A stretch of DNA of 64,000 bases, from assembly GCF_003425985.1 (NCBI RefSeq), contig NZ_CP022985.1, positions 3,580,001 through 3,644,000 on the forward strand, written 5' to 3'. The translations under genes and the position numbers were made by a program. Below are positions 37,472-58,036 of the stretch, piece by piece. Every line of letters begins with the position of its first letter. Position 1 is the first letter of the stretch. This DNA is from Mariniflexile sp. TRM1-10 (GTDB lineage: Bacteria; Bacteroidota; Bacteroidia; Flavobacteriales; Flavobacteriaceae). Below the pieces are notes generated by a model that did no database searches, was not told where the DNA came from, and was given only the letters and a program-made list of their open reading frames with translations.

Positions 37472-37490
37472 AACCAATTTGGTTATCCAG
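37472..37490. promoter_or_regulatory. Shared operator of the alginate locus, susC copy
   Basis: AACCAATTTGGTT followed by ATCCAG. The first 13 bases form a perfect palindrome with 6 bp arms. The same motif (AACCAATATGGTT then ATCCAG) lies at 58018-58036 before the GntR-type regulator. In both places it is just downstream of a TATATTTG box, which fits repression. Confidence 0.75.
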
Positions 37491-37529
37491 TGAAACTAAA
37501 CAATCTAACTTTATATAATATTAATTATT

Positions 37530-40500
37530 ATGAAATTAAGAATTTTTTATCTGCTACTATTTCTAGGTAGTTTTATTGTCAATGCTCAAACCAATACGTA
37601 CACTATAACGGGAAAAGTTGTGTCTGAGGTAGACGGGATGCCTATTGTAGGAGCAAACGTTCTTGTGACTTCCAAAAACAAAGGAACAGTTACGGATTTC
37701 GATGGCGGTTTCACGCTTCAAGTTGCAAATGATGATGTTGTCACGGTATCCTATGTAGGCTTTGTTTCGCAAACATTTATTGTAAGGAGTCAAAATAACG
37801 TGCTAATTAAAATGGTCGAAGATATGGCCAAACTTGATGAAATTGTTGTTGTGGCCTACGGAACCCAGAAAAAATCAAGTCTCACAGGGGCTGTTTCTAG
37901 TTTAAATAATGACAATCTTGACGAGTTGCCATACAGTAGGATTGACCAAGCTTTACAAGGTAAAATTGCCGGAGTGCAAATTCAAAATATATCATCGGAA
38001 ATTGGGGAATCACCACAAATTACCATCAGAGGTTTAAGCTCCATTAGTGCCAGTAGTTCCCCGTTAATTGTAGTCGATGGGTTTCCTATTGCAGATGCTT
38101 TGGAATTTATTAATCCGAGTTCTATAAAATCCATTGAGGTGTTGAAAGATGCCAGTTCAACCGCACTTTACGGTTCAAGAGGTGCGAATGGTGTGATTCT
38201 AGTAACTACCAAAAGTGGCAGTTTAACACCTACATACAGCTTTAAAAGCTTTACCGGATTTAAGCGTGCATACAAACAAATTGACGCCTTAGATGGATTT
38301 GAATATACCGATATGCTCCTTAATGAACGCCAAACCATCGAAAATTTTGAAGCTGCACAAAATGGAACAACACCATCCATCTTAACGTATACGACTAGAG
38401 AACGTGCGCAGCGTATTGTCGCTACTGAAACAGGAGGTACCAATTGGTCTGAAGAATCCCAACGTGGAACGGCTCAAATTAATAACTATCAACTGGATAT
38501 TTCTGGAGGAAATTCAAGCACAAAGTATTATATATCTACTCAGTACATTGAAGACCAGGGACTTTTAAAAGATAACTTCAACAATAAATTAAACTTTCAA
38601 GGACGTTTATCTACAAAATTATCTGATAAGCTAGAAATCGGGTTTAATTTCAGACCATCCTTTTCAAGGTTAAGACGTTCCACAGTGCCTTTTTCTGATT
38701 ATTCAAGAGCATTGCAATGGGGACCCGTAAGGCATAATGCATTTACTTCTGAATTAACAGGGCAACCAATTGGTTCCTATTCCCATCCGAGACACTATAA
38801 CAATACCACATTTAGTTATGTTGATGACCAAGGGATTCCGCAAACATTTACAGCAAGCTCGCTTTGGGGATCCAGTAATAACAATCCCATTGCAAGAATG
38901 GAAAATGAAAACCGTACACGCTATGATTATAGGGTCGTTGCAGATGGATTTGCCAATTGGAAAGTTGCAAAGAACTTAACATATAAAGCAACATTTGGAG
39001 GCTATTTTCAATTAAGAGATTATGAAATATTCAGAAATTCACAAGCGTCACATACTGGTGAATCTTATGGTTATAATCTAATGAACTTAAATAACAAATT
39101 CATCACAGAACATACCTTAAACTACAGATGGAAAAAGAAAAACCATAGTATGGATGTCTTAGTGGGTACCACTTATGAATATACAGCTTATAAAAACTCA
39201 GCCATTGAAGGCACACAATTCCCAACAGATTTAATTGAAACTTTAAATGCAGCAACTGTAATCAATGCCGATGGTACTTATACCAATAAGGAAGAAATTT
39301 CATTGGCGTCTTTTTTAGCCAGAGTCAATTATGATTATAAAGGAAAATATTTGTTTTCTGCAGCAGCACGTTATGATGGTTCTTCCCTTTTTGGTCCAGA
39401 CAATAAATACGGTTTCTTCCCTTCAGCATCCGTGGGATGGAACATTCACAAAGAAAAGTTTTGGAAAGACAATATCGGTTTTGTTAACCAATTTAAAATC
39501 CGTTCAAGTTTTGGACTTACAGGGAACAACAACATAGAAAGCTATGCATTTACAAATCTTTTGTTTCCAGCAAATTATTCACTAGGGGAAAGTGGAGGTT
39601 CTGTAAATTCCGGTCTTGCTGAAAACGGATTGACACTAGGCAACAGTGCCATAAGTTGGGAGCAAACCAAACAATATGACACAGGAATTGATGTTAGTTT
39701 TTTAAAGAATAAATTATCACTAACAGCCGATTACTACTATTCTGTAACAGACAAACTCTTGCTTCAGCAGAATGTATCATACATTACGGGTCACGATAAT
39801 TATTGGAATAACATAGGTAAAATACAAAACCAAGGTTACGAAATAGCTCTGACCGCAAACCTAGGAACCGATAGTTTTACTTGGGATGGTAGCATTAATT
39901 TTTCAGCCAATAAAAATAAGCTCATTTCTTTAGGTGGGGAAGAACAATTTATCAACCAAGGGGAGCGCAACGAACAATATATCTCCAGAGTAGGAGAGGA
40001 AGCCATTCAGTTTTACGGATATAAAATGGTTGGTGTTTGGCAAAATGTCGAAGAATTAAATACGTTACCGCGTTCTTCAGAAGATGCCGTTGGTGGTATT
40101 AGAGTTGCAGACATGAATGGTGATGGTATTATTGATGCAGATGACAGAACATCTTTAGGGAGTCCTTTCCCAGATTTTACTTGGGGCTTTAGCAATACGT
40201 TTAAATATGGAGGTTTTGATCTTTACTTCTTGTTTCAAGGCTCTCAAGGTGGCGAAGTATTTTATGGCGATGGCTTTTATACAGAACCAAGATACCTGCA
40301 TAGCGATTTTGTAAACGGCTGGTGGTTCCATGAAAATTTTGCCGCAACCAAACCAAGGGAAAAATTAGGTAGGGATTGGGTACTGACAGATTATTTAATT
40401 CAAGATGCCTCATACATATCCTTAAGAGAAGTCATCCTTGGGTATTCAGTACCGAAAAAGTTCTTGGAGAAAACCAAACTTAATAAAGTGAGATTATTTG

Positions 40501-40667
40501 TTTCAGCACAAAACTTACTTTATCTCATGTCTAGTGATTACTACGGACTAAACCCTGAGGGTTTTTCAACAAGTGGTGTTTACAGATCGCCTTTAATTTC
40601 AGGTTATCAACGTGGTGCCTATCCAATTCAACAACAGTTTAGCGTTGGTTTAGATATCAATTTTTAA
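37530..40667 (+). CDS. susC: SusC-family TonB-dependent transporter (alginate locus)
   Basis: A 1045-residue protein. It has a signal peptide (to FIVNAQ), a carboxypeptidase-D-regulatory-like domain (about 25-105; ITGKVVSEVDGMPIVGANVLV), LDEIVVVAYGTQKKSSLTGA, a plug with GKIAGVQIQN and IVVDGFPI, and a large barrel ending FSVGLDINF. It is the presumed importer of alginate oligosaccharides, with SusD encoded 12 bp downstream. It has its own promoter with the GntR-type operator. Confidence 0.95.
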   Translation: MKLRIFYLLLFLGSFIVNAQTNTYTITGKVVSEVDGMPIVGANVLVTSKNKGTVTDFDGGFTLQVANDDVVTVSYVGFVSQTFIVRSQNNVLIKMVEDMAKLDEIVVVAYGTQKKSSLTGAVSSLNNDNLDELPYSRIDQALQGKIAGVQIQNISSEIGESPQITIRGLSSISASSSPLIVVDGFPIADALEFINPSSIKSIEVLKDASSTALYGSRGANGVILVTTKSGSLTPTYSFKSFTGFKRAYKQIDALDGFEYTDMLLNERQTIENFEAAQNGTTPSILTYTTRERAQRIVATETGGTNWSEESQRGTAQINNYQLDISGGNSSTKYYISTQYIEDQGLLKDNFNNKLNFQGRLSTKLSDKLEIGFNFRPSFSRLRRSTVPFSDYSRALQWGPVRHNAFTSELTGQPIGSYSHPRHYNNTTFSYVDDQGIPQTFTASSLWGSSNNNPIARMENENRTRYDYRVVADGFANWKVAKNLTYKATFGGYFQLRDYEIFRNSQASHTGESYGYNLMNLNNKFITEHTLNYRWKKKNHSMDVLVGTTYEYTAYKNSAIEGTQFPTDLIETLNAATVINADGTYTNKEEISLASFLARVNYDYKGKYLFSAAARYDGSSLFGPDNKYGFFPSASVGWNIHKEKFWKDNIGFVNQFKIRSSFGLTGNNNIESYAFTNLLFPANYSLGESGGSVNSGLAENGLTLGNSAISWEQTKQYDTGIDVSFLKNKLSLTADYYYSVTDKLLLQQNVSYITGHDNYWNNIGKIQNQGYEIALTANLGTDSFTWDGSINFSANKNKLISLGGEEQFINQGERNEQYISRVGEEAIQFYGYKMVGVWQNVEELNTLPRSSEDAVGGIRVADMNGDGIIDADDRTSLGSPFPDFTWGFSNTFKYGGFDLYFLFQGSQGGEVFYGDGFYTEPRYLHSDFVNGWWFHENFAATKPREKLGRDWVLTDYLIQDASYISLREVILGYSVPKKFLEKTKLNKVRLFVSAQNLLYLMSSDYYGLNPEGFSTSGVYRSPLISGYQRGAYPIQQQFSVGLDINF

Positions 40668-40679
40668 AAAAAAAAGAAA

Positions 40680-42164
40680 ATGAAAACATATTTAAGACAA
40701 TTAATTATCACCATTTCAATAGTCACTTTATATACCTCATGTAGTGATCAATTAAATCTAGAACCTATTTCTGATATTGGGGCTAATGAATTCTATCAAA
40801 ATACGGAGGAAATTAACCTTGCGGTTGTCGGGATTTATAATTCCATGCAAAACATGCTTGACAAAGAATTTGTGTTAACAGAACTAAGATCTGACAACAC
40901 CTATATGAGTCCTCGCAATAGTGAAACTGCAAATGTGCCCTATCGTCAAGTAGATAGATTTGTACTTACATCTCAAAACATTTTTGTAGAAGATTATTGG
41001 AGAGCATGTTACAGAACCATTTCATTGGCAAATAATGTCATTACACAAATAGATGTTGTTGAAGACCAGGAACTCGCCGATAAATACGAGGCGGAAGCAC
41101 GCTTTTTTAGGGCACATGCCTATTTTAACCTTGTTCGCCTTTGGGGTGGGGTTTTTATAGTTGACAAACCCATTTCAGGTGAAGAAGCTAAAACAATTGA
41201 TAGAAGCAACGTACAGGATGTGTATGATTTTCTATTGGCAGATTTAGAATTTGCATCCAATAACCTTCCAAACACAGCCACAGGTCAGGATCTTGGACGT
41301 TTGACCAAATGGGCCGCAAAAACAGAATTGGGAAAAGCCTATTTAACCTTAGGAGGCCATTCAAATTTAACTAAGGCAGAAACCGTTTTAAGCGAGGTTG
41401 TATATGACAGTCCTTTTAGTTATTTACCATCCTATGCCAATGTTTTTGACATCAGTAATGAATACAACAACGAAATTTTATTTGCAGTAAGATACCAAAC
41501 AGGAAGTGTGGGTCTTGGAGCACCTTTTGCCAACTATTTTGCCCCTATTCAAAGTGATAATTATGTGGTTACAGGAAGTGGAGATGAATTAAATGTCCCA
41601 GCGACCAGCATGTCAAACGCTTATCCTTTAGGTGACGATCGCAAAGACGCATCGATGGCAGACAGCTGGGTTGGATTTCAAGGGCAGGTTAATGAATACA
41701 GATATATAAAAAAATACAACTCAGATTTTGGAACTGTTGATGATGCCGGCAATGATTGGCCAGTAATAAGATTTACCGATGCCATGCTACTATTAGCCGA
41801 AGCTATCAATGAAAGTTCGGGACCAACTGCTGATGCCATGGATTTATTAAATCAAGTTCATGAACGGGCAGGTCTTACAGCTTATGATGCTGGTGAAATT
41901 GGAACTTATTTTGACTTTAAATTGGCTTTGGAATTAGAACGCAAGTTGGAATTTGCTTTTGAAAACCAACGCTGGTTTGATTTGCTAAGAACAGGAAGAG
42001 CCGTCACGGTCATGAATACACAATTTGCAACCGAAGACCAATATAACGATCCTAACAGACCACAATTTAAAACAGAGCCCATTCAGGAATTTCAATTGTT
42101 ATTGCCAATTCCTCAATACGAAATTGATTTAAACCCAAGTATTGCTCAAAACATTGGTTATTAA
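40680..42164 (+). CDS. susD: SusD-family lipoprotein (alginate locus)
   Basis: A 494-residue lipoprotein (VTLYTSCSD). RagB/SusD pattern: AVVGIYNSMQNML, YEAEARFFRAHAYFNLVRLWGG, a C-terminal segment with RFTDAMLLLAEAINE and LELERKLEFAFENQRWFDLLRTG. It binds alginate oligomers as the lid of the preceding SusC. A heptamer repeat array follows its stop. Confidence 0.95.
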   Translation: MKTYLRQLIITISIVTLYTSCSDQLNLEPISDIGANEFYQNTEEINLAVVGIYNSMQNMLDKEFVLTELRSDNTYMSPRNSETANVPYRQVDRFVLTSQNIFVEDYWRACYRTISLANNVITQIDVVEDQELADKYEAEARFFRAHAYFNLVRLWGGVFIVDKPISGEEAKTIDRSNVQDVYDFLLADLEFASNNLPNTATGQDLGRLTKWAAKTELGKAYLTLGGHSNLTKAETVLSEVVYDSPFSYLPSYANVFDISNEYNNEILFAVRYQTGSVGLGAPFANYFAPIQSDNYVVTGSGDELNVPATSMSNAYPLGDDRKDASMADSWVGFQGQVNEYRYIKKYNSDFGTVDDAGNDWPVIRFTDAMLLLAEAINESSGPTADAMDLLNQVHERAGLTAYDAGEIGTYFDFKLALELERKLEFAFENQRWFDLLRTGRAVTVMNTQFATEDQYNDPNRPQFKTEPIQEFQLLLPIPQYEIDLNPSIAQNIGY

Positions 42165-42236: not shown

Positions 42237-42350
42237 AGTCAAGAGTTAAGGATTAACAAATCAACAAATAAACGAATAAACAAATAAACACAACCCTTAG
42301 AACCCAGTACGAGGTTTTCCCTTCGGGGTTTGGGGGTTAAATATTTACAT

Positions 42351-44750
42351 ATGAAAAAATATTTAATATATCTCACATGCCTATTTGCTGTATTTGCCCA
42401 TGCTAAAGAAATTTTAGTGAGCAACCCCCAAGCGTTGGAAACTGCTTTAAAAAATGTGGCTCCCGGTGATACCATTATATTGGCAGACCAAACCTGGACG
42501 GACGTCAAAATCAATTTTATTGGTAAAGGCACTCCAGAGAACCCAATTGTTTTAAAAGCACAAACACCAGGTCATGTCATTCTTAACGGTACATCCAGAA
42601 TCATCATTTCCGGAACCTATTTAACTGTAGAAGGCCTATGGTTTAAAGATGGTAACGCTATTGATAAATCTGTTATTAATTTCAGAAAGAATGAGACTGA
42701 GTTGGCCAACTTCTGTAGGGTAACCAACTGTGCCATTACTAATTATAACCCAGATGACAGAGCTTCACAATACCAATGGGTTGAACTGTGGGGAAAAAAC
42801 AATCGTGTGGACCATTGTTCCTTTTATGGTAAAACCAATCAAGGTCCTGTTTTAATTGTTGGTTTACGTGGTAATCCTGAGAATTTAGAGAATAACCATC
42901 GTATAGACAATAATTATTTTGGTTACAGACCACCGCTTGGAGCCAATGGTGGTGAAACCATTAGAGTTGGTACAAGCCATACTTCCATGGAATCGTCGAA
43001 AACCCTTGTGGAAAATAACCTATTCGAAAAATGCAATGGGGAAGTGGAAATTATATCCAGTAAATCTTGTGATAATATATACAGAAACAATCTGTTTTTA
43101 GAAAGCGAAGGCATTCTCACTTTACGTCACGGCAACAGATGTTTGGTGGAAGGCAATGTGTTTTTTGGCAATAACAAACCCCATACAGGAGGAATTCGGG
43201 TTATCAATGAAGGCCACATCATCCAGAATAATCTCATGATTGGTTTAAAAGGTGACGGTTTTAGAGCCCCCTTAGTGATTATGAACGGTGTTCCTAATGG
43301 CCCTTTGAATCGTTACAATCAAGTAAAAGATGTGGTGATCCAAAATAATACCTTCATCAATTCCAGCGCTATTGAATTATGTGAAGGCAGTGATGAAGAA
43401 CGCTCGGCAACACCAATTAATACGACGTTTGCAAATAATTTATTTTACGGAACTGAAAGTATAAATTTATTAAACATTTCTGATGATATTTCCGGGATCT
43501 CATTCTCAGGGAATAAAGTCCAAGGGGCTTATAAATTCAGTACTGAAGGATTTGAACACGCCAATTTAAATTGGGAAAACCTTCCATCTTACCCCATTCC
43601 ATCTGTTTCAAGCGATTCGCTCTTAGAGGTAAAAAAAACCACTCGACCAGTACGCACAGACCTTACAGGAACGGTAAGAACAAAAGTAAGAGCGGGCGCC
43701 ATCATCCCTGGAAATAAAAAAGTACCCGCAGCATTGAGCATCCAACCAGGCGTTAGTTGGTCTTTGGAAAAAGCCAAAGAAACGAATGCCGTAAAACCAC
43801 AACAAGATTATAAAGTAGTGAGCGTATCTCCAGCAGAAGATGCTTTGGTGCATGCCATCAAAAAAGCAAAAGATGGTACCATTTTGGAATTATCAGAAGG
43901 CACTTATGAAATTACAAGAGGTATGCAAGTATCTTCAAATATTATAATCAAAGGTGCTGGAAGCAAAAAAACAGTCATCAAAATAAGTAAGAATGCTGAG
44001 AAAGTTCCAGGATATTTCTTTAAAGTAACTGAAGGAACATCATTAGCTATAAAAGGATTGGAAATTGATGGTTCGAGTGCAAACTCGGTTCGCTACGCTA
44101 TTGTTTCTCAAAATACACCCACATCAAAAGCGTATAACCTGAAATTGGATGATGTGTACATTCATGGGTTTCATGACGATGGAAGTGCCATATTTAAAGC
44201 TTACAAAGGCACTTTTGCAGACTCCATTCAGATCTTAAATTGTCGTTTTGAGAAAAGCTTGAGAGGACTGAACCTGAGTTATGAAAAAGAAGACCTAGGT
44301 AAATACAATGCTGAGGTCATTGATATTCAAAACACCCTATTTAAGGACATTGATCAATTCGCCATCCATTATTACCGAGGTGGCAATGACGAATCTACCT
44401 TAGGAGGCCAATTACATGTTAATCACTGTGTGTTTTATAATGTTGATGACAATGAAAAAGGGCGTAGCATTCGCACTAACGGTATTGTTTACGTTACCAT
44501 TAACAATTCCATTTTTGCAGGAAGTCCCGAATCAAAATATTCCGCAATTCTAAAAGGCGATAAAAATTCTGTTTCTAATTCCGTTGTTTTTAACGCAGGA
44601 GAATTAAAAACATCAAGTAAAGCAACATCCAAATCCGTACTAAATACAAATCCGCAATGGCAGGACACTGATACTTTTCAACTAAAAGAAAGTTCGGCTT
44701 TAAAACATGCTGCTACAGACGGTAAGGACATCGGATTAATAAACCAATAA
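42351..44750 (+). CDS. Two-domain PL6 alginate lyase
   Basis: About 799 residues with a signal peptide (MKKYLIYLTCLFAVFAHA). The N-terminal right-handed beta-helix (about 20-400) is PL6 / chondroitinase-B-like: RVDHCSFYGKTNQGP, GETIRVGTS, EIISSKSCDN with Lys238 and TLRHGNRCLVEGN with Arg259. The 21-residue spacing of Lys and Arg is that of characterised PL6 enzymes. A second beta-helix (about 475-799) lacks these residues, as in AlyGC-type two-domain PL6 enzymes, which are exolytic. It may release unsaturated monomers or act on G-rich alginate. An in-frame TTG at 42330 is less likely than this ATG. Confidence 0.9.
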   Translation: MKKYLIYLTCLFAVFAHAKEILVSNPQALETALKNVAPGDTIILADQTWTDVKINFIGKGTPENPIVLKAQTPGHVILNGTSRIIISGTYLTVEGLWFKDGNAIDKSVINFRKNETELANFCRVTNCAITNYNPDDRASQYQWVELWGKNNRVDHCSFYGKTNQGPVLIVGLRGNPENLENNHRIDNNYFGYRPPLGANGGETIRVGTSHTSMESSKTLVENNLFEKCNGEVEIISSKSCDNIYRNNLFLESEGILTLRHGNRCLVEGNVFFGNNKPHTGGIRVINEGHIIQNNLMIGLKGDGFRAPLVIMNGVPNGPLNRYNQVKDVVIQNNTFINSSAIELCEGSDEERSATPINTTFANNLFYGTESINLLNISDDISGISFSGNKVQGAYKFSTEGFEHANLNWENLPSYPIPSVSSDSLLEVKKTTRPVRTDLTGTVRTKVRAGAIIPGNKKVPAALSIQPGVSWSLEKAKETNAVKPQQDYKVVSVSPAEDALVHAIKKAKDGTILELSEGTYEITRGMQVSSNIIIKGAGSKKTVIKISKNAEKVPGYFFKVTEGTSLAIKGLEIDGSSANSVRYAIVSQNTPTSKAYNLKLDDVYIHGFHDDGSAIFKAYKGTFADSIQILNCRFEKSLRGLNLSYEKEDLGKYNAEVIDIQNTLFKDIDQFAIHYYRGGNDESTLGGQLHVNHCVFYNVDDNEKGRSIRTNGIVYVTINNSIFAGSPESKYSAILKGDKNSVSNSVVFNAGELKTSSKATSKSVLNTNPQWQDTDTFQLKESSALKHAATDGKDIGLINQ

Positions 44751-44765
44751 TAAAAAACAAACCAA

Positions 44766-46217
44766 ATGAAGACTAGAGGAATACAATTTACAGCAATTAT
44801 AATAATGCTCTTTTCATTAGCTCAAGTATTTACAGCTTGTGATGCTGATACTGAAGTAGACAAAACTGTTGATGAAATATTGGCAGCGCAACCAACCATT
44901 GAGTCCATTTCCCCAGGAACAGCAGATATTTTATCTAAAGTTACGATTACAGGTACTTTTTTGAATTTTGCAGAAACCGCATTTGTTGGTGGTGTTGAAT
45001 GTCAAATCACACAGCGTATCAATGGTAAAACTTTAGAAATTAAAGTAGCACCAAATGCTACTTCCGGCGTAGTGAAAATCATAACCTCTGCAGGTAAGGA
45101 AGCGGTGTCTTCAGAAACATTGACAGTAACCTATCCAACACCAACGGTTACATCTACTTTTCCTTCTAGTGCCACAGTAAACGAAAACATCGTACTATCA
45201 GGAACCAACCTAACCAGTATCACGAGAATTTCATTTGGCGATATGGATGGAACGATCCAATTTCAAGAAGATCAGGCTGTTGTAGTAAGTGTTCCTAATA
45301 ATGAAAATTCTCCTGTAGCGGTTAATTACTATTATAATACAGTAAATGGTGAAGTGTCACAGCTATTAAATGATTCGTTTAATATTCTTATTCCAACTCC
45401 TATCATTAGTTCGTGGCCATCTCTCATGAACAGAGATAGTGAAGTTACTATTGTTGGAACAGATATGAATCTCATTACAGGAGTTTCCGTAGGTGGTCAA
45501 AATGCAACCTTTAACACAGCAAGCGCAACGTCCGTAAGCTTTAATGTACCATCAGGAGTTGCCACTGGCTATCAAGATATTGTTGTCAATTACGGAACTT
45601 CTGGTCAGTTGACGCAATCTAACGTGCCTTATATCAATGGGCAGTTTGAAAGTTATATTGAATTTGATTCGTATGCAGCAAATGTTTTTGTGATAGACCT
45701 TTCAAAAGACCCATTAGCCACACAGCAACTCAACAATGTTGTGGAGCAGCCACCTTTCCCGGGCAGTTCATATTACAATCTTCAAATGAACACTGCCACA
45801 GGAAGCACCATAGCAAGAATGCGCTTGCATAATGTAACCAATAATGATACGTGGCCTAATATGATTGATACTGGCAATTTTGGAGATAATCCGGTATTGC
45901 ATTTTTGGATTAACACAGAAAGCACGGAACCCATCTTAAAAATATACATAGGCGGAACAGGATCGGCTAATAGACGGCAACTTTCAGGATCCGACATGAA
46001 TACAGGAGGTGATTGGAAATTGTACGCTGTTAGATTGAAAGGATTTATCCCAAGCATTTCAACGATTGGGTCAACTTTTGAAATCCGATTTAACACAGGG
46101 TCAGGCGTCACCGAGTTCCCGGTAAAAGTAAATATGGATTGGATAATCGTCACGGATTCAGTTCTTACGGAATTTGGAGCTATCGATGTAACAGATGCTT
46201 TTGACGCTGCAGGATAG
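44766..46217 (+). CDS. TIG/IPT-domain surface glycan-binding lipoprotein (alginate locus)
   Basis: A 483-residue lipoprotein (VFTACDAD). Three IPT/TIG immunoglobulin-like domains are visible at about 45-125, 127-205 and 208-290 (PTIESISPGTADILSKVTITG; PTVTSTFPSSATVNENIVLSG; PIISSWPSLMNRDSEVTIVG). A C-terminal beta-sandwich (about 295-483) is probably the glycan-binding domain. No catalytic motif was seen. Position behind susCD and the PL6 gene fits a surface glycan-binding protein. Confidence 0.85.
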   Translation: MKTRGIQFTAIIIMLFSLAQVFTACDADTEVDKTVDEILAAQPTIESISPGTADILSKVTITGTFLNFAETAFVGGVECQITQRINGKTLEIKVAPNATSGVVKIITSAGKEAVSSETLTVTYPTPTVTSTFPSSATVNENIVLSGTNLTSITRISFGDMDGTIQFQEDQAVVVSVPNNENSPVAVNYYYNTVNGEVSQLLNDSFNILIPTPIISSWPSLMNRDSEVTIVGTDMNLITGVSVGGQNATFNTASATSVSFNVPSGVATGYQDIVVNYGTSGQLTQSNVPYINGQFESYIEFDSYAANVFVIDLSKDPLATQQLNNVVEQPPFPGSSYYNLQMNTATGSTIARMRLHNVTNNDTWPNMIDTGNFGDNPVLHFWINTESTEPILKIYIGGTGSANRRQLSGSDMNTGGDWKLYAVRLKGFIPSISTIGSTFEIRFNTGSGVTEFPVKVNMDWIIVTDSVLTEFGAIDVTDAFDAAG

Positions 46218-46276
46218 TTACTGAAAAAAGTCAAGACAAGTTCTAAATAAAAAATATAAATATAAAAAACAAAGCA

Positions 46277-47029: not shown

Positions 47030-47035
47030 TTAAAA

Positions 47036-48934: not shown

Positions 48935-48937
48935 TAT

Positions 48938-49082
48938 ATGAAACACCCATGAAAATAGCATTTACATATACGAAGATGATTATTCAGGGTGCTCCAAGCC
49001 TGTGCTGAGCATTAGCGAGATGCAAAAATATATTTTGCAGTGAAGTTAGCAAATGAAGCTTGTTGAAGCATGACCAAAATAT
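48938..49082 (+). repeat. Leader-type repeat element, copy 3 (long form)
   Basis: Starts ATGAAACACCCATGA, has ACGAAGATGATTATTCA and GGGTGCTCCAAGC, then an extension with a TGCAAAA..TTTTGCA palindrome (49021-49039) and ends GAAGCTTGTTGAAGCATGAC. Copy 4 at 59173 shares the whole 145 bp with moderate divergence. It is followed by AAACCCATAAACTAAT-type tandem units at 49081-49122, just before the PL7 ATG. Confidence 0.65.
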
Positions 49083-49131
49083 AAACTCATAAACCCATAA
49101 ACTAATAAACCCATAAACTAAATACAACCAG

Positions 49132-50067
49132 ATGAAAATAACTAAAAAATTCACCTTAGTCATACTGCTTAAAATCATACTTACAGTGAGTCTTTTTGCC
49201 GGAAGTGTGTCATGTACGAAAAATGAAACTAATTTACCTGAAGAAACAATTGTTAATGTGTCTAATGATAGTTCACAAAAAGCAACGGAATATGCAAATA
49301 TTGATTTCAACCATTGGAAAATTACCTTACCAGTAGACTTGAACAATGACGGTAAGCCAGATGAGTTTCAGCCCATATCATTAATCAATTATGGGTATCA
49401 AACAGAAGAGAATCTCATCCCTTTTATGTATGATGATACCTCGGATACATCTATTGTGTTTTATACGTATCCTGCTGGTGCCACTACGGGAAACAGTAGC
49501 TATCCTAGAACGGAATTACGAGAACAACAAACATCAGGAAATAATTACAACAATTGGTCACTTACTGAAGGCGGTATTTTAGAAGGCACCCTAAAAATTG
49601 ATTCCATTTCGGAAGACAACAATAGCAGCAGAACTTATAATAGAACCATTGTCATGCAAATACATGGTATTATTTCGCAAGAAGACATGACTACGTATGG
49701 CTTTAGTTCCAATCATGCACCACCTTTATTAAAAATGATTTGGGATGAAGGGTATATCAAAGCTTACAAAAAAACGTTGGTGAATGAATCGACTTCAGGA
49801 TTGGATTTATATGATGACAGTTCATCAACTTGGACAGACATCAGCCATAATTTTGGCTATGTGGGTTTTAACAGTTTCAGTATAAAAATTACTGCAAGAA
49901 CAGGAAAATTGACCATTAAAGCCAATAATCAAATACATGTTTTTGAAGATGTCAGTTTACAAAAATGGCCTTTTGAGAATTACTTTAAAGCAGGCAATTA
50001 CCTGGTCTCAACAAATACTGAATCCTTTGCCTATGTCAAATATTATCAATTGAAAGTCTCACACTAA
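49132..50067 (+). CDS. PL7 alginate lyase, lipoprotein
   Basis: A 311-residue lipoprotein (AGSVSCTK) with one beta-jelly-roll. All three PL7 signatures are present: R126-T-E-L-R130-E, Q176-I-H178 and Y284-F-K-A-G-N-Y290. QIH (rather than QVH) is usually associated with polyG or polyMG preference. It is an endolytic lyase placed on the outer membrane to cut alginate before uptake. Length and domain order are normal. Confidence 0.93.
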   Translation: MKITKKFTLVILLKIILTVSLFAGSVSCTKNETNLPEETIVNVSNDSSQKATEYANIDFNHWKITLPVDLNNDGKPDEFQPISLINYGYQTEENLIPFMYDDTSDTSIVFYTYPAGATTGNSSYPRTELREQQTSGNNYNNWSLTEGGILEGTLKIDSISEDNNSSRTYNRTIVMQIHGIISQEDMTTYGFSSNHAPPLLKMIWDEGYIKAYKKTLVNESTSGLDLYDDSSSTWTDISHNFGYVGFNSFSIKITARTGKLTIKANNQIHVFEDVSLQKWPFENYFKAGNYLVSTNTESFAYVKYYQLKVSH

Positions 50068-50084
50068 TCAAAAATGATGGTGAG

Positions 50085-50157
50085 ATAAACACCTATGAAA
50101 ATAAAGTGATTGCTTCGCCAGTTCGCTATCGTTCGTGTCCATCTGACCTAATTAAAA
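50085..50157 (+). repeat. Leader-type repeat element, copy 5 (degenerate)
   Basis: AAACACCTATGAAAATA at the left, GTGTCCATCTGACC and AATTAAAAC at the right. The middle differs from the other copies. It lies about 16 bp before the next start codon, in the same orientation and place as the others. Confidence 0.45.
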
Positions 50158-50172
50158 CAATAAATGTAACGT

Positions 50173-51042
50173 ATGAAAAAACTTATTTTTTTTAGCATCC
50201 TTTTAACCACTTTTTCAAGTGCCACGTTCAGTCAGGAAAAGGAATACAAACCTGTTGATTTTCCCGAAGGATATAAAGCACACATAGATGTGGTCTATGC
50301 CCAAGTAAACGGTTGGGATGGCCGTATGGATTTGTACACCAATCCAAAATCTGAAACACCAACACCTATAGTCATCAATATTCATGGTGGAGGATGGAAC
50401 CATGGTGTTAAAGAATCTCAAACGGGCTATGGTTCATTTTTCAAAAATGGCTATGCCGTTGCCAATGTCGAATATCGTTTGGTTGGTGTGGCACCTGCGC
50501 CTGCAGCTATTGAAGATGTACGCTGCGCCCTGATTTATTTGTACAAGCATGCCAAAGCATTGAATATTGACACCAATAAAATAGTGGTTATGGGTGGTTC
50601 TTCGGGCGGACACTTGGCGCTTATGGCAGGACTATTGGCAAACGATAAAAAATTTGACATCAACTGCAAGTACGATGGCGATATTAAAGTAGCTGCTATT
50701 ATAGATAAATATGGTGTTACCGATTTGGTGCCACTGAGTAAATGGAAATCTGCGAAGAACTGGTTAGGGAAAGGTTTTGATAATCAAAAATTCGTTGAAT
50801 CTGTTTCGCCTTTGTATTATGTTACCAAAAATAGTCCGCCAGTGTATATTGTTCATGGCGATGCTGATCCCATTGTGCCTTATGACCAGTCGGTTGCGCT
50901 ATATGAAAAATTAAAATCCAATGGTGTAAAAACTAAAATGCTGACTATTGAAGGTGGCAACCATGGAAAATTCACCAAAGAAGAGAAAAGCGAAATGAGC
51001 AAAGACATGTGGTCTTTCTTAAACGAATTAGGATTACAATAA
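50173..51042 (+). CDS. Secreted alpha/beta hydrolase, HSL/BD-FAE-like esterase
   Basis: A 289-residue protein with a signal peptide (to ATFSQ). Oxyanion motif INIHGGGWNHG, nucleophile Ser144 in GGSSGGHLA, Asp near VHGDADPIVP (residues 228-235) and His264 (GGNHGKF). The HGGGW motif places it in the hormone-sensitive-lipase-like esterases, often carbohydrate deacetylases in PULs. With the SASA-type gene it gives the alginate locus two putative deacylases. Confidence 0.8.
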   Translation: MKKLIFFSILLTTFSSATFSQEKEYKPVDFPEGYKAHIDVVYAQVNGWDGRMDLYTNPKSETPTPIVINIHGGGWNHGVKESQTGYGSFFKNGYAVANVEYRLVGVAPAPAAIEDVRCALIYLYKHAKALNIDTNKIVVMGGSSGGHLALMAGLLANDKKFDINCKYDGDIKVAAIIDKYGVTDLVPLSKWKSAKNWLGKGFDNQKFVESVSPLYYVTKNSPPVYIVHGDADPIVPYDQSVALYEKLKSNGVKTKMLTIEGGNHGKFTKEEKSEMSKDMWSFLNELGLQ

Positions 51043-51073
51043 TCATTGAATACCAACTAATATCTAAACTATT

Positions 51074-52219
51074 ATGAAAACAAAATTACTATCCGCCGCT
51101 ATGTTGCTAACAAATATAATGGCCTTTTCGCAAACTACCGTGGCTATTCCCGATCCTGCTTTTGAAGCCTATTTAGAAACGGCATTTGCAGCCAATATTA
51201 CACCAGATGGAAGCACAACTGATGGTTCCATAACATTTACCGATATCAATTTAATAACAGATATCGATTTACCAACGGCAGGGGTTACAACTGTAACTGA
51301 TATTACAGGTGTAAAATCCTTTATCAAATTAAAAAATCTTTATGTTCAGGATAATGCTCTAACAGGCACTGTGGATGTGTCAGGTTTAGATAAATTGACC
51401 AACTTATATTTTTACAACAATACAGGTGTAACTGCCGTGGATATTTCAGGTTGTAGAGTGATTTACCACATTAAAGGCTATGGTTGTTCGCTTGAATCGT
51501 TGGATGCTTCCTTGGCTACAACACAATTGACCGATCCGACAAGATTAAGGTACGTGTATGTTAATGATAATCTATTAACAAGTATTAATGTTTCTGGAAA
51601 TACCGGCATTCAAAGATTGGATTGTTTTAATAACAATTTAACGAGTTTAGACATCACAGGATTTACGACATTAACATATTTGCGCTTTCAAAACAATGCG
51701 ATTACAGGAAGTCTTGATGTATCTGGGAATTTAAGTTTAGAGAAATTAGGAGCTTTTGGCAATGATTTAACCAATATAGATTTAGGAGCCATTCCATATA
51801 CGTCTTTTACGTATTTCAAAATAAGTACCAACAACAATTTGTCTTGTGTGTATACTGATAATGCTTCAGATTTTGCTCCTGGTGGCCCTCTGGAAACAGC
51901 CATAGGCAGTAATTATTCTGTAGGTACCAATACCAATTTTGTATTGGATGCCACAGAATGCGCAACCCTAGGAACTGAAGATTTCAATGCATTTGAATTT
52001 TCAATGTATCCAAATCCGACTAAGGAGCATGTTACGATTTCACTTAATGATAATGCATCATACCAACTCATCAATATGAATGGTCAAACGTTAATGAAAG
52101 GCCATTTTAATGCGGGTAAGAATCCATTATCTATTTCAAATTTAGCTAGAGGATTGTATTTCATAAATATGACCACTACAAATGGAAACAGAATGACACA
52201 CAAGTTAATCAAACAATAA
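51074..52219 (+). CDS. Secreted leucine-rich-repeat protein with T9SS sorting domain
   Basis: A 381-residue protein with a signal peptide (to MAFSQ). Residues about 22-270 contain irregular LRR-type repeats (LKNLYVQDNALTGTVDVSGLDKLTNLYFYNN, IQRLDCFNNNLTSLDITGFTTLTYLRFQNN). Residues about 305-381 form a T9SS type A sorting domain (EFSMYPNPTKEHVTISL...GLYFINMTTTNGNRMTHKLIKQ). It is exported and probably attached to the surface. No catalytic residues; a binding or adhesion role on alginate is only suggested by its neighbours. Confidence 0.85.
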   Translation: MKTKLLSAAMLLTNIMAFSQTTVAIPDPAFEAYLETAFAANITPDGSTTDGSITFTDINLITDIDLPTAGVTTVTDITGVKSFIKLKNLYVQDNALTGTVDVSGLDKLTNLYFYNNTGVTAVDISGCRVIYHIKGYGCSLESLDASLATTQLTDPTRLRYVYVNDNLLTSINVSGNTGIQRLDCFNNNLTSLDITGFTTLTYLRFQNNAITGSLDVSGNLSLEKLGAFGNDLTNIDLGAIPYTSFTYFKISTNNNLSCVYTDNASDFAPGGPLETAIGSNYSVGTNTNFVLDATECATLGTEDFNAFEFSMYPNPTKEHVTISLNDNASYQLINMNGQTLMKGHFNAGKNPLSISNLARGLYFINMTTTNGNRMTHKLIKQ

Positions 52220-52227
52220 ATCCCCTT

Positions 52228-52268
52228 AATGACATGCAGGACTCTTAAAAACGTTTCTGCATGTCATT
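52228..52268. terminator. Stem-loop after the LRR gene
   Basis: Perfect 12 bp arms AATGACATGCAG (52228-52239) and CTGCATGTCATT (52257-52268) with a 17-nt loop, 9 bp after the stop codon and 15 bp before the next ATG. It is a terminator or processing site between the two T9SS genes. Confidence 0.6.
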
Positions 52269-52282
52269 TAAAAACCTAAACT

Positions 52283-54073
52283 ATGTCTATCAAATCATTA
52301 CTTAACTTTTTCTTGTTGTTTCTATCATCAATAACACTTTCTGCACAAACCTATGTGACAACAGATACCAATTTGCAGAATTTAGTGAATGCCTCTTCTG
52401 GGGGTGAAACATTTATTGTTTCAAATGGGACTTATCCTGATTTTTATGCAAGTTTCACCAAAATCGCAACGGCCGAAAACCCGATTGTTATAAAAGCGGA
52501 AACCGTTGGAGGCGTAACCTTAACCGGCAATTCCTATTTTGTGTTTAAAAAGGCAGCACATATTACGCTGGAAGGTTTTGTATTTGATTGCACTGGTAAT
52601 AGTACATTGGTGAAATTAGAAGCGTCCAACAATATCAGAATTACCAGAAATGTTTTTGAAACACAAACAACCAGCTCACTCAAATGGATTGTAATAACAG
52701 GTTATTATAATGATTATACGTTTCAGTTTTTGAGCCACCACAATAGAATTGACCACAATACGTTTCAAAATAAAACCACAGCAGGGAATTATATCACTAT
52801 TGATGGCACTTACAACGAAGACAAAACCGTCAACCAACAATCGCAATACGACAGAATTGACCATAACTACTTTTATAATAATACACCACGAATTGAAAAC
52901 GAAAAAGAATCCATTAGAATAGGCAACAGTCAATTGTCAACAACCAGTGGTTTTACAACCGTAGAATTCAATTTGTTTGAAGACTGTGACGGCGACCCAG
53001 AGATTGTCTCTGTGAAATCTTGTGATAATGTGGTAAGACACAATACTTTTAAGAGAAGTTATGGGTCTTTAACTTTACGCCAAGGCAACAGAAACCGTGT
53101 GGAAGGCAATTACTTTTTTGGAGACGGAAAAGCCAATGGCATATTTATAAATGATGCTAATCAAGAACAAACGATTTATACAGGCGGCATTAGAGCTTAC
53201 GGTACAGACCATGTGATTGTTAACAATTACCTTGAAGGCTTGCAAGGCACCCGTTTTGACGCACCAATAACCTTGACACAAGGCGATGCCATTGACGGCA
53301 TTGATACCGATCAAAGTTTGCATTATAGAGGCGAACGCATCACTATTGCCAACAATACTTTGGTCAATAACGCTTACGGCATCGAAATAGGCTACGCAAA
53401 AAGCAATGGTTCTTATGACCAAGCATTGCAAGATATAACCATAGCCAATAATTTAGTCATAGGTTCAGAACACAGCCTGGTTAAAATATACAATGACCAA
53501 GCCGGCGAAGTGACTTGGGTCAATAATGTGATGTATCCTATGGATGACGCTATTTTAAATGGTGATGGCTATACATTTACTTCCGATGAAATCTCTAATG
53601 AGAATCCAAATTTAGCTTTGACAGGGAGCATTTGGAAAGCCACAAACACAACACCCACAAAAGAAAATGGCGCGTCTTCTTTAATTATTGATGAAGATAT
53701 TGAAGGACAATCACGTCCCACATTGAGCAGCGTTGGTGCTGACCATTTTAGCAGCAGTGGTATTGTTTACACGCCCATTGGAATAAACGATGTTGGTCCA
53801 AATGCTTACGGCGATACCTTGTCAGTTATTGAAAGTGACATTGTCAGCAACATAAAAATATATCCAAATCCTGCGTCATATCAATTCTACATTCAAACAG
53901 ATGGAATACAACTAAAATCAATCATCATAAGTACGATGACAGGTAAAAAAGTATTGCAAATTGATTCAGATGATTTATCGGAAATAGATGTGTCAAAACT
54001 AATTTCAGGCGTATATTTAGTTCAAATCGATACGGAAATAGGTAAGCACACCCAAAAATTAATCATTAAATAA
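52283..54073 (+). CDS. PL6 alginate lyase with T9SS sorting domain
   Basis: A 596-residue protein. Signal peptide (to TLSAQ), one PL6 beta-helix (about 22-470) and a C-terminal T9SS sorting domain (about 520-596; NIKIYPNPASYQFYIQ...GVYLVQIDTEIGKHTQKLIIK). Catalytic Lys245 (EIVSVKSCDN) and Arg266 (TLRQGNRNRVEGN) have the same 21-residue spacing as in the first PL6. It lacks the second beta-helix, so it is a one-domain, probably endolytic enzyme secreted to the cell surface or medium. Confidence 0.9.
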   Translation: MSIKSLLNFFLLFLSSITLSAQTYVTTDTNLQNLVNASSGGETFIVSNGTYPDFYASFTKIATAENPIVIKAETVGGVTLTGNSYFVFKKAAHITLEGFVFDCTGNSTLVKLEASNNIRITRNVFETQTTSSLKWIVITGYYNDYTFQFLSHHNRIDHNTFQNKTTAGNYITIDGTYNEDKTVNQQSQYDRIDHNYFYNNTPRIENEKESIRIGNSQLSTTSGFTTVEFNLFEDCDGDPEIVSVKSCDNVVRHNTFKRSYGSLTLRQGNRNRVEGNYFFGDGKANGIFINDANQEQTIYTGGIRAYGTDHVIVNNYLEGLQGTRFDAPITLTQGDAIDGIDTDQSLHYRGERITIANNTLVNNAYGIEIGYAKSNGSYDQALQDITIANNLVIGSEHSLVKIYNDQAGEVTWVNNVMYPMDDAILNGDGYTFTSDEISNENPNLALTGSIWKATNTTPTKENGASSLIIDEDIEGQSRPTLSSVGADHFSSSGIVYTPIGINDVGPNAYGDTLSVIESDIVSNIKIYPNPASYQFYIQTDGIQLKSIIISTMTGKKVLQIDSDDLSEIDVSKLISGVYLVQIDTEIGKHTQKLIIK

Positions 54074-54081
54074 TTTACGTC

Positions 54082-54897
54082 TTGAAACAAATCTTCATCC
54101 TATTTTTGATTTTATCTGCCCTCTCACCGAATGCACAAACCATTCTGGAAGCTGATGGTAAAGGGAAAACCTATGAATTGATCAATAACGTTTTGGCACC
54201 CAACTATGATGTGATAGAAACACCCGATTGTGCCCATAAGGATTTTGGAAATCACATTACCGAAACATGGGATGCTGATTTAAAGAAATATGTATTTGTG
54301 TTTCATGCCCATGTGGAAGAAGATAATGACCGTTGTAAAAAGTTTGATAGGGAACGTACCGAAATCAAAACCTATAAACAATCCCCCGACAATCTTATTG
54401 CAACACTTGGAGAAACGGTTGTTTATAAATGGAAATTCAAATTGGATAAACACTTTCAAGCATCGAATAAATTCACACATATCCACCAAATAAAGGCAGT
54501 TGGAGGTACTGAAGATGCCATGCCAAGCATCACTTTCACATTAAGAAAATTGAAAGTGGATGCATTTCAAATCAGATATGCTTCCAACATGGAGCAGAAT
54601 AATTTAATCGATGTGCCTTTAGAAGATTTTAAAGGTGTTTGGGTAGAAGTTTATGAGCGAATCACCTATGGCGAGATTGGAAAAGGCAAGTATGAAGTGA
54701 CTTTAACTAGAGCTGACAATGGCAAAGTATTACTAAACTACAGCAATGATTCCATAAGAATGTGGAAAACCGATGCTCAATTTTTACGTCCCAAATGGGG
54801 CATTTACAGAAGCTTACAAAACGCATCAGATTTGAGGGATGAACAAGTGAAATTTGCGGATTTTTATATCGAGGAATTAGAAGACATTCAAAATTAA
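54082..54897 (+). CDS. Probable divergent jelly-roll polysaccharide lyase, TTG start
   Basis: A 271-residue protein that opens at a TTG; the signal peptide (KQIFILFLILSALSPNAQ) begins at once and no ATG is available. The body fits a concanavalin-like fold: FDRERTEIKTY recalls the R-x-E strand of jelly-roll lyases, and FTHIHQIKAVGG carries a His/Gln pair similar to the QIH strand; a late WGIYRS segment precedes the last strand. This resembles the PF14099 group (heparin lyase I/PL13, PL20-like) more than PL7. It begins 8 bp after the T9SS PL6 gene, so it is co-transcribed. Lyase function on alginate or another uronan is an inference. Confidence 0.6.
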   Translation: MKQIFILFLILSALSPNAQTILEADGKGKTYELINNVLAPNYDVIETPDCAHKDFGNHITETWDADLKKYVFVFHAHVEEDNDRCKKFDRERTEIKTYKQSPDNLIATLGETVVYKWKFKLDKHFQASNKFTHIHQIKAVGGTEDAMPSITFTLRKLKVDAFQIRYASNMEQNNLIDVPLEDFKGVWVEVYERITYGEIGKGKYEVTLTRADNGKVLLNYSNDSIRMWKTDAQFLRPKWGIYRSLQNASDLRDEQVKFADFYIEELEDIQN

Positions 54898-54966
54898 CAT
54901 AAAATAAAGTGAGTTCGATATAATCAAGAATGTATTTAATTAAAAATAATTTACTTAGATTTTGAT

Positions 54967-55038
54967 GTCAGGTTGAGCGCAGTCGAAACCTATAGAAGTT
55001 ATCGATTTTAATAACCTTTCGACTGCGCTCAAGGTGAC
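54967..55038. repeat. REP-like hairpin (TTGAGCGCAGTCGAAA)
   Basis: Arms at 54967-54988 and 55017-55038 match at 20 of 22 positions. The core TTGAGCGCAGTCGAAA belongs to an extragenic hairpin type often seen in flavobacterial genomes. It lies between the jelly-roll lyase and PL17 genes and may end the upstream transcript. Confidence 0.7.
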
Positions 55039-55194
55039 AACTTAGTTTATCCTTAAATATAGAATTGTTTTTAAATCGAACCCACGTTAAAATAATATTA
55101 TAAAGCGTATTTTTAAAATGCAATCAAATCATTAGTTTTCACAAGGGGAAGCATTCACTGATTGTGAGCAAAGAATAATTTCAAAAAAACAAAC

Positions 55195-57483
55195 ATGTTT
55201 TTAAAAAACAAAATACCATCTCTATTAGTTGCATTACTATTGATTGTTGCTTCTTGCAAAGCACAATCGAAAGGAATTTCTAATGCAAAAAAATCAAGTA
55301 AACAAGAACACCCCAGTTTAATACTTACAAAAACAGGTGTTGAAAACATAAAAGCGCAGTTAGGAACCGTTCCTCTTTTTGATGACACTTTAGCAAAAGT
55401 AAAAGCCGAAGTAGATGCCAGCATTTTAAATGGCATTGAAGTACCCATCCCAAAAGATTATTCTGGGGGCTATACGCACGAGCGACACAAAAGGAACTTT
55501 CTAATTTTACAAAAAGCAGGTATTTTATATCAAATATTTGATGATGAAAAATATGCAAGTTACGTTAAGGAAATGCTTTTGGAATACGCTAGAATATATC
55601 CAACACTTCCGGTACATCCACAAACAAGGTCGTATGCACGTGGCAAACTGTTTTGGCAATGTTTAAACGATTCCAATTGGTTGGTGTATGTAAGTCAAGC
55701 GTACGATTGTGTGTATAATTATTTGACTGAAAAAGAACGTGCTCATTTAGAAGAAAATCTTTTTAAACCATTTGCAAGGTTTATTTCGGTAGAAAATCCA
55801 CAGTTTTTCAATCGGGTACATAACCATAGTACGTGGGGTAATGTGGCAGTTGGTATGATAGCATTGGTTATGGACGATGCTGAATTGCTCGAAATCGCAT
55901 TGCATGGATTAAAAACCGATAATATAGACCCCAATGCCAAAGACAATGATGGAGGTTTTATAAAAAAGAAAGGGCAAAAAGTAGGGTTTCTTGCAAATTT
56001 AGAAGAACCATTTTCACCAGATGGTTATTATACCGAAGGACCTTATTACCAACGGTACGCCATGTATCCCTTTTTGGTTTTTGCAGAAGCGTTACAAAAC
56101 GTAAAACCTGAGCTTAAAATCTTTGAGTATAAAGATAGCGTGCTATTGAAATCGATAAATACATTGTTACATTTAACCGATGCCAAGGGCAATTTCTTCC
56201 CATTAAATGATGCTCAAAAAGGCATGTCGTATTACTCAAGGGAATTGGTGTCGGCAGTAAATATTGGGTATTTTTATGGCGGTAATAAAACCGAATTATT
56301 ATCTATAGCAAAAGCACAAGGCGAGGTGTCGCTCGACGATGCAGGTTTATCGGTAGCCCTTGGAATACGCAATGGTTTAGAAACCCCTTTTATTAAAAAA
56401 TCAATCGATCTATCTGACGGAAAAAATGGTGACGAAGGTGGCGTAGCCATATTAAGAACAAATAGCACAAAAGACGCGCTTACTTTAGTGATGAAATATT
56501 CTGCACAAGGTTTAAGTCACGGGCATTACGATAAATTATCATTCTCTTATTATGAAGCTGGAAACGAAGTGGTTCAAGATTATGGAATGGCGCGTTTTGT
56601 AAATATTCAACAAAAGGGAGGAGGCAATTATTTAAAAGAAAACACCACATGGGCAAAACAAACCATTGCCCATAATACCATAAATCAAGACGAAACTTCA
56701 CATTTTGGTGGTGATTTTGAAACAGGCAGTTTGCACCATTCCGAAAAATATTTATTTGATGTTTCCAATCCAAACATTCAAGTTGTAAGTGCTACGGAAA
56801 CAAATGCATATCCGGGTACTGAATTGCATCGAACCATGGTATTTATAAAAGATGACAGTTTCGAGAATCCATATCTTTTGGATATCATTAAGATCCATGC
56901 TGAAAGTGAACATCAATTTGATTTGCCGTATTATTATTTAGGACAATTGATAGCTGTAAATTTTAAATACACAACACCTGAAAGCTTAAAGCCTTTAGGA
57001 ACTAAAAATGGATACCAACATCTATGGAGTGAAGCTGAGGGTACATCGGAAACAGGGAATGCTAAAATATCTTGGTTGAATAAAGACCGATTTTATACAC
57101 TTACATCGGTCGTTTCAAACAATGACGATTTAATATTTGCCCGCATAGGCGCTAACGATCCGAATTTTAATTTAAGAAGAGATGCAGGATTCATTATCAG
57201 AAAAAAGAACAGTAAAGACACTTATTTTATATCTGTTCTAGAATCCCATGGGCATTACAATCCCGTTAGTGAAGCAGCAGTTAATGCCTTCAGCAATATT
57301 AAAAAATTAGATGTTGTTTATAGTGATGACTCATGTATAGCACTGGTAATTGAAACCGAAAGTGCTGGAAAAAGCATGTTTACATTTTCTTTTAAAGACA
57401 ATTCAAAAAATAGTACCCATCAAATAAAGATAGAAGAGAAGACCTATCAATGGAAAGGTGCTTATTGTTTATTTCATATGTAA
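55195..57483 (+). CDS. PL17 oligoalginate lyase, lipoprotein
   Basis: A 762-residue lipoprotein (LIVASCKA). An (alpha/alpha) toroid (about 50-400) carries the catalytic Asn210-His211 in RVHNHSTWGN and the catalytic-type Tyr in DGYYTEGPYYQRY (Tyr278-285). A heparinase II/III-like beta-sandwich (about 405-762) includes SHGHYDKLSFSYYEAG and AHNTINQDE. PL17 enzymes are exolytic and turn alginate oligomers into unsaturated monomers in the periplasm. The length is typical. Confidence 0.93.
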   Translation: MFLKNKIPSLLVALLLIVASCKAQSKGISNAKKSSKQEHPSLILTKTGVENIKAQLGTVPLFDDTLAKVKAEVDASILNGIEVPIPKDYSGGYTHERHKRNFLILQKAGILYQIFDDEKYASYVKEMLLEYARIYPTLPVHPQTRSYARGKLFWQCLNDSNWLVYVSQAYDCVYNYLTEKERAHLEENLFKPFARFISVENPQFFNRVHNHSTWGNVAVGMIALVMDDAELLEIALHGLKTDNIDPNAKDNDGGFIKKKGQKVGFLANLEEPFSPDGYYTEGPYYQRYAMYPFLVFAEALQNVKPELKIFEYKDSVLLKSINTLLHLTDAKGNFFPLNDAQKGMSYYSRELVSAVNIGYFYGGNKTELLSIAKAQGEVSLDDAGLSVALGIRNGLETPFIKKSIDLSDGKNGDEGGVAILRTNSTKDALTLVMKYSAQGLSHGHYDKLSFSYYEAGNEVVQDYGMARFVNIQQKGGGNYLKENTTWAKQTIAHNTINQDETSHFGGDFETGSLHHSEKYLFDVSNPNIQVVSATETNAYPGTELHRTMVFIKDDSFENPYLLDIIKIHAESEHQFDLPYYYLGQLIAVNFKYTTPESLKPLGTKNGYQHLWSEAEGTSETGNAKISWLNKDRFYTLTSVVSNNDDLIFARIGANDPNFNLRRDAGFIIRKKNSKDTYFISVLESHGHYNPVSEAAVNAFSNIKKLDVVYSDDSCIALVIETESAGKSMFTFSFKDNSKNSTHQIKIEEKTYQWKGAYCLFHM

Positions 57484-57587
57484 ATATTCATTGTTTTTTA
57501 AAGGTCATATGGTATCGCTTTATTTTCAGTAGTGTTAGCGTTTCCAAATCATGGCGATTTCAAATTAATTAAAATATATTATATAGA

Positions 57588-57935
57588 ATGAAAAAAAGTT
57601 TTGGAGCAAGTAAAGAATTTTTATTGGGAGATGACATCCCTTGGGAAGTTGTAGGTGAGGGGGTAAAACGTAAAATTATGGCCTATGATGATAACATTAT
57701 GTTAGTAAACGTTCACTTTGAAGCTGGAGGTATAGGTCCCATGCATGAGCATTACCATTCACAAGTCACCTATGTGGTAAGCGGCGAGTTTGAACTTACC
57801 ATAGGAGATAAAACAAGATTACTAAAAGGAGGTGATGCCTTTTATATTCCACCACATGTATTGCATGGGGCTATTTGTAAAAAAAGTGGCGTCTTAATAG
57901 ATGTATTTAGTCCAATTCGTGAAGATTTTATGTAG
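57588..57935 (+). CDS. kdgF: KdgF cupin, unsaturated-uronate ring-opening enzyme (copy 1)
   Basis: A 115-residue single cupin. Motif 1 is His53-x-His55-x3-Gln59-x6-Gly (MHEHYHSQVTYVVSG), with Gln in place of the usual Glu; motif 2 has His93 (VLHGAICKKSG). KdgF converts 4,5-unsaturated monouronates into the open keto form (DEH), the step between PL17 and the SDR. It has no signal peptide, so is cytoplasmic. It begins 104 bp after PL17. A close paralogue lies at 62754. Confidence 0.88.
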   Translation: MKKSFGASKEFLLGDDIPWEVVGEGVKRKIMAYDDNIMLVNVHFEAGGIGPMHEHYHSQVTYVVSGEFELTIGDKTRLLKGGDAFYIPPHVLHGAICKKSGVLIDVFSPIREDFM

Positions 57936-58006
57936 TCATATTCTATTAATCAATTATTAGTTTGCAAAAAAAACATATGGAAACATTTTTTTTAACAAAA
58001 TTTGCA

Positions 58007-58036
58007 TATATTTGGTAAACCAATATGGTTATCCAG
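58007..58036 (+). promoter_or_regulatory. -7 box and shared operator before the GntR-type regulator
   Basis: TATATTTG at 58007-58014 (exact TAnnTTTG) runs directly into AACCAATATGGTT (58018-58030) and ATCCAG. The second part matches the susC-side operator at 37472-37490 at all but one base. The position fits autorepression by the GntR-type protein encoded 148 bp downstream. Confidence 0.75.

Follow-up and report, generated by a model that had tools for sequence, protein, structure and literature searches.

AusR, a GntR-family protein reportedly described by Dudek et al. in Nucleic Acids Research (NAR) in 2020, is said to repress the alginate utilization system of Zobellia galactanivorans. Here, comparable control is analysed in a 64 000-nucleotide stretch of the Mariniflexile sp. 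TRM1-10 genome (hereafter the window; positions 3580001-3644000 of the one contig of 4,858,325 bases that makes up the whole genome), in which two closely similar sites precede a susC-type transporter gene and a GntR-type regulator gene (hereafter susC and gntR). Both sites are very probably operators of an AusR-like GntR/FadR repressor encoded at 58184, which would control alginate uptake as well as itself. Citing papers describe Zobellia AusR as a GntR-type protein that represses most alginate genes and whose binding is stopped by alginate breakdown products (PMC7874173, PMC8286568, PMC8073546); its operators are said to come in one, two or three copies (PMC7874173).

The regulator gene (58184..58894, plus strand) encodes a 236-aa AusR-like protein with a GntR domain (PF00392, 8.2e-18) and an FCD domain (PF07729, 5.8e-25), the winged helix-turn-helix plus FCD composition of the FadR subfamily, and it stands beside SusC/SusD and lyase genes, as in an AusR-type alginate polysaccharide utilization locus (PUL). 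As in Zobellia, so far as the available descriptions go, a GntR-family regulator lies among alginate PUL genes and promoters carry multiple operator copies; the three copies at susC and two at gntR fall within the one to three described for AusR, assuming that the repeat unit defined below is the operator. By gene context, regulator class and operator multiplicity, the window system is most likely a further example of the AusR kind.

The nearest studied tandem case found was Escherichia coli NanR, also a FadR-like GntR repressor with tandem operator repeats, which acts on sugar-acid metabolism and of which, according to the portion of the source available, three dimers bind three GGTATA repeats cooperatively via a 32-residue N-terminal extension (PMC8012715). 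The NanR repeats are described there as direct repeats that place dimers about half a turn apart, whereas the repeats in the window are near-palindromes of 13 bp, each offset from the next by about a quarter turn. No NanR-like extension was found in the 58184 protein, in which the GntR domain begins at residue 16 and residues 17-224 align with NanR 35-246, and the protein stayed below the cut-off of the NCBIfam NanR model (115.9 bits versus 260). The unit consensus TGGT-ww-ACCA, with 2 nt between GT and AC, agrees with the FadR-subfamily rule of TKGT/ACMA separated by 2-3 nt, as given in the available part of the source, which places GntR, HpxS, HypR, MdcY, PrpR and UxuR in the class with 2 nt (PMC4494728). 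UxuR, which is described in the excerpt available as controlling hexuronic acid metabolism (PMC9369180), belongs to a type for which weaker half-sites are reported 7-12 nt away (PMC4494728, in part); the arrays here are contiguous, with 13-bp units. The NCBIfam Uxu model cut-off was likewise not reached by the 58184 protein (65.9 bits versus 442).

The sequence-only reading had paired the two sites through the 19-mers AACCAATTTGGTTATCCAG at 37472-37490 and AACCAATATGGTTATCCAG at 58018-58036, each following an exact TATATTTG box. Direct reading and a mismatch search of the window bore out the letters, the coordinates and the single difference in 19, and the exact boxes, which we take to be of the flavobacterial -7 type, are present at 37448-37455 (susC operon) and 58007-58014 (distal gntR promoter), both on the plus strand. 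At up to three mismatches the window holds three matches to the 19-mer, the third being an overlapping minus-strand reading of the susC site (37466-37484); shuffled windows gave a mean of 0.07, and three matches were reached in 0 of 100.

Both sites are head-to-tail, spacer-free arrays of a 13-bp unit, TTTGGnnnnCCAA, with three units at susC (37452-37490) and two at gntR (58011-58036). The susC site reads TATATTTGGAAAACCAA followed by ACTAGTTAACCAA and TTTGGTTATCCAG, and the gntR site TATATTTGGTAAACCAA followed by TATGGTTATCCAG; the first unit at each site shares TTTG with the TATATTTG box, so that the end of the box overlaps the first putative operator unit. Units were scored with a matrix trained on 213 units from relatives that had been chosen by likeness to a typed consensus, and the bit scores serve for ranking only. 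The susC array comprises, on the plus strand, TTTGGAAAACCAA (37452..37464; 18.3 bits, exact core), ACTAGTTAACCAA (37465..37477; 9.5 bits, one core mismatch) and TTTGGTTATCCAG (37478..37490; 15.9 bits), and the gntR array, on the same strand, TTTGGTAAACCAA (58011..58023; 21.8 bits, the window's best unit) and TATGGTTATCCAG (58024..58036; 8.0 bits, exact TGG/CCA core). Simulating each intergenic region 2000 times with a first-order model never gave a 13-bp-spaced pair of units as good as the best one observed, and gave a single unit as good as the best observed just once, at susC and gntR alike. An initial composite pattern for both sites missed susC because the letters before TGG had been set too narrowly, and a widened pattern was used; a candidate at 60734 was dropped because it lacks a TGG/CCA unit.

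This frame recasts parts of the sequence-only reading. Its second TTTGG/CCAAA repeat exists, overlapping the box (TATATTTGG) and not following it; its roughly 13 extra bases at susC amount to exactly 13 bp, that is, one further repeat unit; and its 13-bp palindrome, AACCAATWTGGTT, does occur at both sites, where it joins the right half of one unit to the left half of the next and very probably does not serve as the operator frame.

Relatives of the regulator (77-88% identical; 80 loci of 202 confirmed) come from records whose titles name Flavobacteriaceae, Flavobacteriales or single genera, the last presumably members of the Flavobacteriaceae. These 80 loci hold 241 TGG[AT]4CCA units. Of the 103 pairs that the units form within 60 bp, 81 are spaced by 13 bp, 21 by 26 bp and one by 39 bp, and no other spacing occurs. 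With control half-sites around the four A/T bases, in five pairings (ACC/GGT, TCC/GGA, GTG/CAC, AGG/CCT and GGT/ACC), 0 pairs were obtained in the same loci. With one core mismatch allowed in neighbouring units, 76 arrays were obtained in 59 of the 80 loci (45 double, 30 triple, one quadruple). Downstream of them lie SusC-like genes in 54 cases (26 double, 28 triple), gntR in 10 (all double), PF05426/PF07940-type lyases in six and PF14592-type genes in two, one of these about 970 bp from its array; four are unassigned. The promoter overlap is conserved as well: among the 76 exact two-unit arrays, 71 have a TAnnTTTG box whose end falls within their first unit, against a background in which TAnn precedes 294 of the 2930 TTTGG words in the 80 loci. 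One three-unit array (L169:2827) carries such boxes at both ends, as if serving two divergent promoters.

The region up to 150 bp before gntR bears on whether the operator might instead be the palindrome AACCAATWTGGTT, with one dimer seated at each junction between units. That palindrome is found at both window sites and arises wherever two units abut. An exact unit lies in this region in 52 of the 80 loci, in tandem in eight and alone in 44; among the lone units, the junction core ACCAnnnTGGT is kept exactly in nine, where half a unit remains to one side and the neighbouring unit is otherwise lost, with one mismatch in four, and with two or more mismatches in 31. The other 28 loci lack an exact unit, and none of them shows a junction core with zero or one mismatch. 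The unit thus occurs without the junction, and the junction was not seen without a unit; at the susC site, moreover, a further intact unit lies upstream. An operator centred on the junction is accordingly very unlikely, and the 13-bp unit is retained as the putative operator.

Array and regulator were then compared across 299 Flavobacteriaceae genomes, using the array pattern TNTATTTGGNNNNCCANNNTGGNNNNCCA and a regulator cut-off of E<=1e-75. The pattern occurs in 70 genomes (reversed-pattern control: 0 among the matches listed) and the regulator in 71, the regulator being present in 70/70 array-positive genomes and the pattern in 70/71 regulator-positive ones, with neither in 228 (Fisher p 2.8e-68, a value inflated by the shared ancestry that the statistic ignores and resting on one E-value cut-off). 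By genus, 57 of 236 carry the regulator and 56 the array. In the sole regulator genome without the exact pattern (G176), a 747-aa reading frame is closely preceded by a two-unit array, TATTTTTGGTAAACCAAACTGGTTAACCAA, whose box, TATTTTTG, is a variant outside the searched pattern. The class with neither depends on the thresholds. Below the cut-off, more distant regulators are present in G297 (55% identical), G094 (54%) and G242 (49%); three-unit arrays lie directly before those of G297 and G094, and unit-like sites before that of G242. Separately, a genome of the same genus (G134:C23) has a regulator only 72% identical to that of the window, and one from another genus (G125) a regulator 91% identical, a pattern hinting at exchange of alginate loci.

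The earlier proposal that one GntR/FadR-type repressor acts on uptake and on its own gene gains strong support from this comparison, in that SusC, gntR and lyase genes of relatives are likewise preceded by arrays, the regulator accompanies every array-positive genome and the motif fits FadR-subfamily boxes. The motif could alternatively be bound by another regulator, for instance the LacI-family protein encoded beside kdgK/kdgA-like genes from 63096 onward, with the GntR protein a mere neighbour. LacI proteins bind palindromes, the LacI gene is near the cluster, and LacI and arrays co-occur above chance (43 genomes with both, Fisher p 3e-7). However, at E<=1e-70 no LacI match was obtained in 27 of the 70 array-positive genomes, the array pattern is missing from 62 genomes that do have LacI, and in the relatives arrays precede gntR itself (10 of 76). 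Assignment of the arrays to LacI is for these reasons extremely unlikely, and the GntR protein is kept as the probable binder.

Scans of the window's own genome bear on a further alternative, that AT-rich flavobacterial promoters resemble one another by accident of chance or composition. The sequence-only reading had named random abundance of the motif across the genome as an outcome that would speak against its proposal, and the scans did not show such abundance. The 17-base core of the 19-mers, CCAATWTGGTTATCCAG, is exact in the whole genome only at the susC and gntR sites; with two mismatches there are four further places (reversed-pattern control 1+1), three inside open reading frames (ORFs) of at least 80 aa and the fourth (L007) outside an ORF with a negative best unit score. 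One-mismatch tandem matches beyond the two window arrays all lie inside ORFs, and the own-genome regulon could not be extended past the two arrays, as three mismatches yielded 10 chance-like rows (control 1). Single core units (TGGTWWACCAR) are in keeping with the accidental explanation, being no more frequent than expected: 33 rows against 66 (31+35) in the reversed control. Of these 33, 30 have loci, all inside ORFs of at least 80 aa except L113 and the gntR site (L129), and two rows at C1:4172084-4172095 have none. The box-plus-unit scan returned 14 rows, 12 of them outside the two arrays, against 16 in its control. Given the confinement of the tandem matches and the near-perfect family-wide linkage of array and regulator, an accidental origin is barely conceivable.

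Besides this lack of enrichment, several points weigh against an AusR-like repressor acting at both sites. An exact unit within 150 bp of gntR is missing from 28/80 orthologue loci, and 8/80 lack both an array in the examined flanks and any exact unit up to 400 bp from gntR. The middle susC, second gntR and proximal gntR units are weak (9.5, 8.0 and 7.5 bits), and the matrix that ranks them was itself trained on units preselected by likeness to the consensus. The descriptions available for Zobellia AusR show no difference from the window system, and this likeness is drawn from the wording of citing papers.

DNA binding, repression, effector response and cooperativity of the 58184 protein are what we infer, as follows. 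Each near-palindromic unit would be gripped by one repressor dimer, and, judging from the overlap of the first unit with the -7 box, bound repressor would cover the promoter together with the probable start site and so block polymerase. When alginate breakdown products appear the repressor would let go, as is reported for Zobellia AusR in the descriptions available, and the uptake/lyase operon and the repressor would then be made together, giving an induced, self-limiting switch. A 13-bp unit corresponds to 1.24 helical turns, so that neighbouring units are computed to face about 86 degrees apart, an offset at which contiguous dimers could fit next to one another, possibly with cooperativity. 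More tentatively, and with rather less than even confidence, the spacer-free 13-bp phasing may mark a cooperative array whose neighbouring dimers, offset by about a quarter turn, pack together although they have no NanR-like extension, and the number of units per promoter (one or two for the regulator gene, two or three for the transporter gene) may be an evolved dial for repression strength or induction order in flavobacterial alginate loci. For the window, the analysis settles the most likely controller of alginate uptake; for many alginate-degrading flavobacteria it offers a likely operator frame of 13-bp unit, phasing and copy number per promoter, which would allow AusR regulons to be read off genome sequences and would permit tests of how regulation depends on copy number.

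Two further features were noted in the window: the regulator combines an array at its distal promoter with a decayed unit nearer the gene, and the SusC behind the other array differs in lineage from those of most of the 80 relatives. The distal gntR array ends 147 bases before the start codon. A degenerate proximal unit, TGTGGTTAACCTG (58150..58162, plus strand; one core mismatch), ends 21 bases before the gntR start, near the position of the relatives' single gntR operator, and by eye the stretch preceding it looks like the promoter, with a single operator, of the orthologue that is 91% identical (L198, G125). The degenerate unit suggests two promoters for the regulator gene; since it follows a stretch of the single-operator kind, the distal array has the look of a susC-type promoter that was added.

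The SusC/RagA TonB-linked outer-membrane transporter (37530..40667, plus strand), encoded by the first gene after the susC array, is at most 36% identical to 51 SusC-like proteins behind boxes in the 80 loci, whereas among the 50 others 42 share 49-98% identity with the protein of locus L021. Its closest matches in the 299 genomes, among the matches listed and with two candidates scored per genome, are 74, 73 and 57% identical and lie in G297, G094 and G242, which are the three genomes with distant regulators. By these identities the window SusC is of another lineage than those after most arrays of the 80 relatives, and its closest matches in distant-regulator genomes indicate that operators of the AusR-like kind would serve different SusC lineages.

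The transporter gene is followed on the plus strand by a SusD-family binding protein gene (40680..42164) and by a set of alginate-type genes (42330..57483) encoding, by their domains, two PF14592 proteins, a TIG protein, an SDR, a SASA esterase, a PF08787 alginate lyase, an esterase, an LRR/T9SS protein, a PF14099 lyase and a PF05426+PF07940 lyase, the last of which we take to be of PL17 type; these domains make it plausible that the whole set serves alginate. Upstream of gntR lies a cupin gene (57588..57935, plus strand; first in-frame ATG 57588), probably KdgF-like by gene context. Just right of the cluster, as far as L184:6327, are the LacI regulator gene (63096 and past the window end) and genes for a PfkB kinase, a PFK and a KDPG aldolase (kdgK/kdgA-like). 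The 15-kb stretch right of the window, in which the PfkB kinase and KDPG aldolase genes lie, holds one unit scoring above 9 (L184:9045), inside a predicted integrase ORF, and no operator was assigned there. A separate SusC/SusD locus (12203-35932) with GH3, GH2, GH43, glucoamylase-domain and sulfatase genes contributes no 13-bp array among the window's top 40 unit scores. At the left end of the window (458-3680), two HipA-like proteins (PF07804) are encoded.

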